Source of the DNA: Myxococcales bacterium
GTDB taxonomy: Bacteria > Myxococcota_A > Polyangia > Polyangiales > Polyangiaceae
Length of the DNA stretch: 53,941 nucleotides
NCBI GenBank assembly: GCA_003154095.1
Contig: PMCK01000589.1
Location: forward strand, 11,568-65,508
Reading direction: 5' to 3'
The position numbers were made by a program, and so were the translations under genes. Position 1 is the first letter of the stretch. Each line of letters opens with the position of its first letter. Under the pieces are notes generated by a model that saw only the letters and a list, made by a program, of their open reading frames with translations, had not been told where the DNA came from and did no database searches. Shown piece by piece: positions 49,375-52,533 of this stretch.

Positions 49375-50763
49375 TTACCAGACGTTCAGGAGCCACTCCT
49401 TGTTCTTCGTGTACTCCATGTGGGTGAAGAGCGCGTTCGCGATGGTTTCACCGAGTTCCATAGCTCCCCGATATCCAATCGTAGGCTTTCGGTAAAGCCC
49501 TGCGCGATCGAAAGTTGGAAAACCGACACGCACCATCGGTATGTTCGCGTCAATGGCGATGTAGCGGCCCTTCGAGTGCCCGAGGATGAGATCCACTTCC
49601 GGTGTCTTGTCGCGAACGCGCTTCTCGAGCTCCCACAAATCTGCGTTCGTGACGACTTCGATGTCCACGTCCGTGCGTTCCTTCAGCGCCTTTATTCGTT
49701 TGTCTTTCTTTGGCTTCGAATTGTCGTCACCGAACAGGAGTAGCACTGGTTTCATTTCGAGTTCAAGACAGAACTCCGCCAGGCCAATCACGAGATCCGG
49801 GTGCCCATAGATGGCAACCTTCTTGTCCGCAAAGAACATGTGCGCGAGGTCCATCAGCGCGTCGAGAGCAATCCCGCGCTCGCGCACCAGCGATTCGGGG
49901 ATTGGCTTACCCGTCAATTCGGCGATGTTCTTAAGCAATTCGTCGGTATTTTTGATCCCAATTGGGGTCGGTGTCACGACACAGGGGACGTTATGTTCCT
50001 GACTCAGGTACTCCGCTGCCGCAGCACCTTCATACCGGGCCAGAGCAATCGACCCAATAGCGCCGGACGAATTCTCGATGTCTTCGACTGTCGTTTGACC
50101 ATGCGACTCCACGGATTTGTCTGGCAAAACAGGGCTATCGAAATTCTCAGTGTCCATGAACACTGTCGCATCGACGCCCATTTGCTGACAATACGTCTTG
50201 AGCAACATGACATCACCGGGATTGACCCAGCCTGGAAACACATTGAGCTTTCCGGTGGGCTCGGTCTTCTTGGTTGCAATCGTTTTGAACGTGGAAGTCA
50301 TGAATTCGTTATAGCCGGTGACTTGACTCCCTTGAAAGCTCGGTGTGTGCACCGGAATCAGGTGGATCTTGCGTTCCGGAAAGCCTTTCGTGAGCCACTT
50401 GTTGATGTCGGTTATTGTGCCTTCGATGTCGTCTCCTATGACTTCTGTCGAACACGTTGTAATGATTGGGATCACGCGGATATTGGGGTATCGTTGCACC
50501 ATTACCTGCACTGCTTGCTCGACGCGCTTTCTTCCGCCAAACACCGCGGCGTCCTCGTGCAATGAACTCGACGCGATGTCAAAGTTCTCTTTGAAGTGCT
50601 GTGCAAACAGCAGGCGAACGAACATGCAGCAGCCTTGGCCGCCATGCACGAGGGGTATACAGTCTTTGATCCCAATACCTGCGTATTGCGCTCCGGCGGG
50701 TTGGCAGTCGTACATTGGGTTGATAACTCCAACCCTGACTCGCGGTTTGATCTCACATCCCAT
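49375..50763 (-). CDS. vnfK: vanadium nitrogenase beta subunit
   Basis: [65 protein letters not shown]-cluster Cys in [21 protein letters not shown]. Confidence 0.95.
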
Positions 50764-50779
50764 GACAGTCCTCGTTTCT

Positions 50780-51121
50780 TCAGTAAGCCTTCTCGTGCAA
50801 TTCGTGATTACGTGACTGTGTGATCGCAACTTGTGTCACACGCTCTCGGAGCGACTCCAACAATGCCCGCACCCCGGCCGCGTCCAGTGACCCAAGATCT
50901 GGGAACCGTTCGCGTAGTTGATCGGCAAGAACTCTTGCATCGGCGAGGAAGAGCCGCTCGGTCGGGCTGCTCGGATTGACCGGAGTATTCGTGAGTAAAT
51001 CGGCCAAGGTACCAAGAACACCATCGATGTTCTCCGTGCGATCCCACGCTCGGGAAGAAAACTGCCAAAGGCAACGCTCCTGAACGTATCCGTACACTTC
51101 GTCTAAGGCAGGGGCTGTCAT
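50780..51121 (-). CDS. vnfG: vanadium nitrogenase delta subunit
   Basis: [28 protein letters not shown]...[20 protein letters not shown]; between vnfD and vnfK. Confidence 0.95.
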
Positions 51122-52533
51122 ACGGCCTCCTTGAGTTCCACAACGGGAGTGGCACGGACATCGGTACGCGCGAGATTGAAGAGCGGATTATGAACGGCGT
51201 TGTGCATGTCGCGCGCGAGGTTGACGAAGCCCTCGAAGCCCATGTAGGGCCCATTGTGGTATCCGTGTCCATTGACGTACGGAATGTGCAACTTCTTGAC
51301 CAGTTCGCCGACGCGGGGACCCGTAAAGATGACATCGGGCTTGATGGCGTTGATGATTTCGAAGAATTCAAGTTCATTCGGATCATTTACGTAGTACGTG
51401 CCCTCACGACCGCGCGCGATGACCTTCTCGAAGTCCTCCTCGTGACCGAACTTCGACGACATCGCCACAACCTCCACACCCAGGTCGTCTTCAACCGCCT
51501 TGGTCCAATGCCACAGGCGGGGCCCACCCGTCCAGATCGCCATTTTGGCGCCCTTGAGGCGTGCTTTGTACCAGTCCAACTTGGGCTTCCACTTGGCATA
51601 TTCGGATGCAATGAGTGCTTCACCCTTCTCCTCAATGCCGAAAAATGTGCTGATCTTCCGGATGCCCTCCGCGGTGTAGTTGAAGCCCCACGAGTCAATG
51701 TCGAGCCGAGGAGTGCCGTATTTGCGTTTGAGTTCGTTGGCAATATATCCAGCGGAGCGCGCGCAATTGACGACATTGAGCTTAGCGCGATGCATTCCGC
51801 GCAGGTCGTCGTAGTTGGCGTTGCCAGTGAAGTGAGCAATCACCTGTATTCCGAGTGCGTCCCAATATTGCTGAAGCAGGAACGTGTCGCCCTGGATGTT
51901 GTAGTCACCAATGAAGTTCATCGTGTATTCGGAGGTGATCTCGGGCTCGATGGTGCCAACTTTTTCGTTGACCCAACCTATGTTCAGCACATGGTGGCCC
52001 TTCGATTGACTAACCCCAGCGAACCCTGGGCACTCGACGGTGAAAATATCGACGTCTGGCCTAGCCTCCATCACTCGCTTGGTAACGGCTTTCACGTCGT
52101 CGCCAATCAGGGCGGTTGGGCAAGTTGTGTATAGGATCATGCGCTTGAGGTGAGGCATCTCGTCAAAGGCCTCGTGCATGGCCTTCTCGAGCTTCTTTTC
52201 ACCCCCGAACACGATATCGGGTTCTTTCATGTCGGTCGACCAGACATACTTGATCTGGAGGTTGCCGTTATCGGATGGGTAACGCTTGGTGTGCCACGTG
52301 TCGTACGCACAACCGATGGGCCCATGAATCATTTGGATCGTGTCTTTGAGGACGCCTCCAATAACGAGTTTCGCACCGCAAAACGCGCAACCTCGTTCGG
52401 AAAGCGTTCCCGGAATCGTTGGTGAATTCGCGAGCGGCAGAAAGTCTTTGGGGTCGTCGTCGGGTGCCTTCAGATAGATGTGCTTTTCCCGTTCGGGGAT
52501 ATCCTTATCGCAACGTAGTAGTACCATCGGCAT
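51118..52533 (-). CDS. vnfD: vanadium nitrogenase alpha subunit
   Basis: [100 protein letters not shown] loop; cofactor ligands in [11 protein letters not shown] and [14 protein letters not shown]. Confidence 0.97.

Follow-up and report, generated by a model that had tools for sequence, protein, structure and literature searches.

Vanadium (V) nitrogenases (Vnf) were reported in a survey from Alpha- and Gammaproteobacteria, Firmicutes, Methanosarcina and Cyanobacteria; the Deltaproteobacteria in the same survey have Anf, not Vnf (PMC8399215). In addition, metagenome-assembled genomes (MAGs) of Holophaga carry Vnf, which was ascribed to lateral transfer and is closest to Paenibacillus (PMC9599518). 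In A. vinelandii the motif of the activator VnfA1 is GT(T/A)C-N6-GTAC, mostly present in pairs (PMC9542535). In Anabaena variabilis vnf is repressed by VnfR1/R2 with molybdenum (Mo), and the vupABC genes near vnf are described as tungstate-transporter-like (PMC4284476).

The window, i.e. the whole analysed stretch of 53,941 nucleotides, very probably contains the catalytic core of a standard V-nitrogenase together with its regulon (Table 1), in a Myxococcota-type bacterium which would have acquired it from Proteobacteria; metal content and activity are predicted from sequence. The subunits, their gene order, the gap-free VnfD alignment, the P-cluster and cofactor ligands and the TGGPRLWHW loop are shared with the A. 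vinelandii VFe protein VnfDGK (PDB 5N6Y, 6FEA), and the VnfA-type upstream sites and a five-gene accessory operon with the A. vinelandii vnf system. VnfD is about 83% identical, but the host belongs to a different phylum, extra TonB/FecCD/Etf genes lie near vnfDGK, and vnfH and vnfENX are located on the other side of nifX2. The nearest sequences are those of the vnf cluster of Azospirillum sp. TSO22-1 (VnfD 88%, VnfK 75%, concatenated 81%). Its vnf-linked EN proteins also resemble the EN proteins found here (66% and 53%), whereas its host is an alphaproteobacterium with a GC content of 0.70. The Vnf of Acidobacteriota (L071 and the Holophaga MAGs) is likewise a V-nitrogenase in a non-proteobacterial MAG; L071 branches outside the proteobacterial crown that holds the present sequence. 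A vanadate-type transporter and an HTH regulator near vnf are also known from Anabaena variabilis; however, vnfDG are fused and the promoter control is different there (PMC4284476), the transporter found here is PhnD-type, and the regulator shares only ~36% identity with cyanobacterial vnf-locus proteins.

Table 1 Genes and promoter elements of the V island and its regulator-like neighbour, with positions in the window
Feature	Position	Strand	Remarks
HTH + molybdate-binding-like (PBP_like) regulator	27274–28380	−	~36% identity with cyanobacterial vnf-locus proteins
Periplasmic binding protein beside TonB receptor	33529–34626	−	relatives near several vnf loci
TonB-dependent receptor	34658–37258	−	relatives near several vnf loci
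Sigma-54-like element	37243–37257	−	near TonB receptor
VnfA-type site	37387–37400	+	upstream of TonB receptor
PhnD-type ABC transporter (permease, periplasmic binding protein, ATPase)	37438–39927	−	binding-protein relatives in 33/77 vnf loci
Two VnfA-type sites (40083, 40112)	40083–40125	+	divergent region, PhnD-type transporter/accessory operon
Accessory operon, whole (five genes)	40239–44733	+	gene order as Avin_02430-02390
Accessory gene 1, SBP_bac_6	40239–41309	+	
Accessory gene 2, CobW/HypB GTPase	41300–42001	+	
Accessory gene 3, ABC ATPase	41998–43008	+	
Accessory gene 4, nitroreductase	42996–43580	+	
Accessory gene 5, glutamate-cysteine-ligase-like	43588–44733	+	
EtfA/FixB-like flavoprotein subunit	44831–45832	−	family models
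EtfB/FixA-like flavoprotein subunit	45843–46697	−	family models; possible electron supply
Sigma-54-like element	46694–46708	−	near etfBA
Two VnfA-type sites (46774, 46803)	46774–46816	+	upstream of etfBA
ABC ATPase, partner of FecCD permease	46821–47783	−	family models
FecCD-family metal/siderophore permease	47690–48757	−	family models
nifX3, NifX-like small protein	48791–49249	−	after vnfK; homologues in 53/77 vnf loci
VnfA-type site	49361–49374	+	upstream of nifX3
vnfK, beta subunit	49375–50763	−	462 aa
vnfG, delta subunit	50780–51121	−	113 aa; 4 bp overlap with vnfD stop
vnfD, V-nitrogenase alpha subunit	51118–52533	−	471 aa; family model, 5N6Y alignment, ligands
Sigma-54-like −24/−12 element	52613–52627	−	upstream of vnfD; 2 mismatches, GG/GC kept
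Three VnfA-type sites GTTC-N6-GTAC (52723, 52754, 52790)	52723–52803	+	between vnfD and nifX2
Perfect sigma-54 −24/−12 element TGGCAC-N5-TTGC	52854–52868	+	upstream of nifX2
nifX2, NifX-like	52925–53329	+	divergent from vnfD; family models
vnfX, C-terminal part	53583–53939	−	cut by contig end; N-terminal part on contig C621 (L104:3640-3825)

The VnfDGK proteins

The original prediction of full-length VnfD, VnfG and VnfK with P-cluster cysteines and the Cys/His cofactor ligands was confirmed. None of the three reading frames contains an internal stop. Among solved structures, all subunits are closest to the VFe chains of A. vinelandii (5N6Y), to which VnfD could be aligned without gaps over residues 1–461, VnfK over 4–462 and VnfG over 4–112. 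In A. vinelandii numbering, VnfD keeps the P-cluster cysteines C49, C75 and C138, the cofactor ligands C257 and H423 as well as Q176 and H180; C31, C56, C115 and S153 are kept in VnfK. The carbonate loop of VnfD, starting at T335, reads TGGPRLWHW as claimed earlier, and not PGGSKL as in Anf. The Anf-type loop given earlier agrees with the solved Fe nitrogenase 8OIE, which has PGGSKLWHW at the equivalent position.

With the NCBIfam VnfD model, VnfD scores 942 bits (cutoff 823), compared with 676 for the AnfD and 367 for the NifD model. VnfK reaches 869 bits with the VnfK equivalog and narrowly misses the cutoff of 874 (AnfK model 740), and VnfG with 120 bits misses the cutoff of TIGR02930 (142; AnfG model 77) but is over the cutoff of Pfam AnfG_VnfG (116 bits). 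These values just under the equivalog cutoffs and the long own branch in the tree (0.30) indicate that the protein has diverged. That vnfDGK encodes a V-nitrogenase is supported by the family models, by the closest structure, by the residues of the active site and by the phylogeny, although an FeMo- or FeFe-cofactor in vivo may also be compatible with the proteins. The enzyme itself is an ordinary and well-preserved member of a known family, and its regulon is unusually complete; the new part is its host and the transferred regulon.

The V island and its promoter sites

All window proteins were compared with 77 vnf loci taken from GTDB genomes. The vnf-associated part extends from about 33.5 kb to the end of the window (33.5–53.9 kb, ~20 kb), and its genes recur in other vnf loci. 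Relatives of the first four genes of the accessory operon were found in 12–14 of the 77 loci and those of the last gene in 2; the identical five-gene order is known from Avin_02430-02390, a VnfA1-dependent operon of A. vinelandii (PMC9542535). The PhnD-type transporter probably takes up vanadate or a related oxyanion, and vanadium would be the substrate of the siderophore-type TonB/FecCD system as well. By analogy with VnfR1/R2, the regulator at 27274–28380 may be a VnfR-like Mo-responsive repressor. It belongs to a six-gene block (20242–28380), described below, which also contains lipoproteins and a TonB-type outer-membrane protein and looks like a metal-uptake module. A ModABC-like oxyanion ABC transporter (17793–20223) separates this block from the left part of the window. 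Anti-phage genes (10616–17077) encode a PifA-like KAP NTPase (388 bits) and, in tandem, an IetA-like AAA ATPase and an IetS-like subtilase.

If up to one mismatch is allowed, GTAC-N6-GTAC is matched 24 times in the window against 8.6 expected, a number reached in none of 100 shuffles, and the density of the motif class is 0.33/kb compared with 0.09/kb in other host DNA. Of the other vnf loci, 74 extend far enough upstream for this comparison, and 44 of these have such a site within 500 bp of vnfD. Most of the sigma-54-like matches found in the window do not rise above chance level (77 versus 65 expected), and therefore only the elements beside VnfA-type sites are cited in Table 1. GTWC-N6-GTAC sites, several of them paired, are clustered upstream of the vnf-island operons and accompany these elements.

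Adjoining contigs and the proposed regulon

It had been stated that vnfH, vnfEN, nifB and vnfA are absent from the window. This is right for the window itself, which ends inside vnfX together with its contig C374, but vnfH and vnfENX continue on the abutting contig C621 and nifB is located on contig C395. The join to C621 (3.8 kb) consists of 26 exact bases, the last of C621 and the first of the reverse strand at the window end, and is in frame inside vnfX with one mismatch just upstream. Besides a partial vnfH (a 153-aa fragment only), C621 carries divergent vnfE and vnfN genes and the first part of vnfX, with two VnfA-type sites between vnfH and vnfE; the closest matches of its E and N proteins are proteobacterial, vnf-linked EN (66% and 53%). 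Contigs C395 and C631, which have a common 20-base end, contain genes for a NifA-like activator, nifB, nifV, draT, nifH, nifD, nifK, nifX, nifE, nifN and a draG-like gene. The genome thus also holds a Mo-nitrogenase set (nifHDKEN, nifB and nifV), and EN, B, homocitrate synthase and a reductase are all present, the vnf-linked vnfH as a fragment. With these genes and those of C621, an identified vnfA is the only part still lacking from the set that a V-nitrogenase requires. Among the genes proposed earlier to be sought outside the window, nifHBEN and part of vnfH were recovered, and for vnfA only NifA/VnfA-like enhancer-binding proteins: a NifA family search of the genome yielded 25, none of them clearly VnfA, and the candidate activator on C395 is without its N-terminus.

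The nifEN genes of the Mo cluster (C631, L103 2609-5394) are divergent, NifE being 38% identical to A. vinelandii NifE and NifN below the curated cutoff, unlike the EN of C621. Further nitrogenase reductases on C322 and C663 were rejected, as the NifH match on C322 turned out to be a fragment joined to a NifX-like domain and that on C663 a ParA-type protein. The gene on C322 (L112 2676-3338), in which a NifH C-terminus-like fragment is run together with the NifX-like domain, is possibly a frameshifted or chimeric nitrogenase-reductase-like gene.

According to the model proposed here, VnfD2K2G2 would contain the FeV-cofactor and serve for N2 reduction under molybdenum scarcity, VnfH being the electron donor. 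The genes vnfH and vnfENX would sit beside vnfDGK on the same replicon, and NifB and homocitrate synthase would be supplied by the Mo-nif cluster. Induction of the whole island is expected when Mo is low and V is available, via a putative VnfA-like sigma-54 activator at GTWC-N6-GTAC, so that vanadium uptake (TonB/FecCD and the PhnD-type transporter) and the accessory operon would be co-induced; molybdenum presumably represses the island.

Host genome and origin of the island

The fragmented MAG comprises 714 contigs and is 84% complete. Proteins with the MYXO-CTERM sorting signal were matched 18 times in the genome and not at all in 14 control genomes. The host therefore looks Myxococcota-type, which rests on these proteins and on group codes rather than on a named reference tree. 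Together with the evidence that ties the contig to the genome, this bears out the earlier guess of a myxobacteria-like host.

The tree built from concatenated VnfDK places the own sequence inside the 52-row proteobacterial Vnf crown (support 100/98), neither in Anf nor in a nitrogenase-like group, so the V-nitrogenase reading withstood the phylogenetic check; the grouping with Azospirillum sp. TSO22-1 is weakly supported (62/57). The simplest reading is an acquisition of the island by horizontal transfer from Proteobacteria, followed by adaptation to the host. No other genome with AnfG/VnfG was found among 379 sampled across the phylum or 184 of the order, and no VnfD in 58 other relatives, one of which has only nifD/nifE-level matches. 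Even complete nif is rare in the family: four strong nitrogenase-type matches on one contig were found in only one other of 108 genomes. The literature searched, mostly without subscription papers, contained no report of a vanadium nitrogenase in Myxococcota or Polyangia, which is not proof of absence. A host lineage already known for vnf, which would have counted against the earlier reading, did not emerge from these genomes and reports. Among Myxococcota this is probably the first V-nitrogenase. It would belong to a regulon of more than 20 kb (enzyme, cofactor scaffold, vanadium uptake and VnfA sites) that was gained horizontally and is still under regulation, in one lineage that also has a Mo-nitrogenase and several methylthio-alkane-reductase-like enzymes and would thus possess an unusually large set of nitrogenase-type reductases. 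With a myxobacterium-like carrier, V-nitrogenase extends to an apparently new host phylum, one of importance in soils. The case also suggests that a metal-responsive regulon can pass between phyla as a whole, with its promoter sites and uptake genes. Myxobacterial carriers could be overlooked in surveys where similarity is taken to place vnfD in Proteobacteria.

A misbinned or chimeric contig, with a vnf island from an alphaproteobacterium of the same sample, would agree with the fragmented assembly, with the alphaproteobacterial origin of the nearest VnfD sequences (up to 88% identity) and with the lack of vnf in every relative searched. However, the same contig contains the six-gene block, which is duplicated on contig C532 (L176 7669-15756; one protein at 88%); homologues of this protein occur in 25 of 59 genomes searched, the own genome included. 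The GC content of the island (0.55–0.58) fits the host contigs (0.55–0.60), not the compared proteobacterial vnf loci (0.61–0.70). Tetranucleotide correlations are 0.85–0.91 for the island, 0.91–0.95 among host contigs and 0.59–0.77 for vnf loci of other bacteria, and the codon usage of vnfDGK correlates with that of the host at 0.949 (host contigs 0.91–0.99, proteobacterial vnf loci 0.78–0.90). VnfDK is, moreover, only 81% identical to its nearest relative and has a long branch. The duplicated block, together with composition and codon usage, led to the rejection of misbinning, which is regarded as very unlikely; most likely the island belongs to the genome and has been resident long enough to ameliorate.

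About as improbable is a decaying or silent import that the host does not use. The long branch and the lack of a clearly identified vnfA could be read in this way, but all reading frames are intact with their ligands kept, VnfA-type and sigma-54 sites lie upstream of several separate operons, and coding was preserved while the composition ameliorated to that of the host. Still less credit is given to an Fe-only or uncharacterised nitrogenase-like enzyme, to which the VnfG and VnfK scores slightly short of the curated cutoffs might point: each subunit scores higher with its Vnf than with its Anf model (by 266 bits for D, 129 for K and 43 for G), the loop is TGGPRL, the tree position is inside Vnf, and vnfEN-type and V-island accessory genes are present. 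An Anf identity was rejected on scores and tree. The preferred reading remains a V-nitrogenase regulon of proteobacterial origin residing in a Myxococcota-type host.

In the same genome there are some seven to eight further nitrogenase-like alpha/beta pairs, a striking number, some of them cut by contig ends (C337, L105; C261, L014; C362, L106; C272, L107; C218, L109; C36, L108; C152, L110). For the pair on C362, which adjoins a Cys/Met PLP enzyme, by far the nearest solved structure is the methylthio-alkane reductase (MAR) MarDK of R. rubrum (9FMG/9D9U, 309 and 361 bits); a separate MarH was not found. In Magnetospirillum fulvum (L092) a pair (16953–20330) related to these MAR-like proteins is located about 7 kb from vnfD (10001) and adjoins a gene of the Cys/Met-metabolism type.
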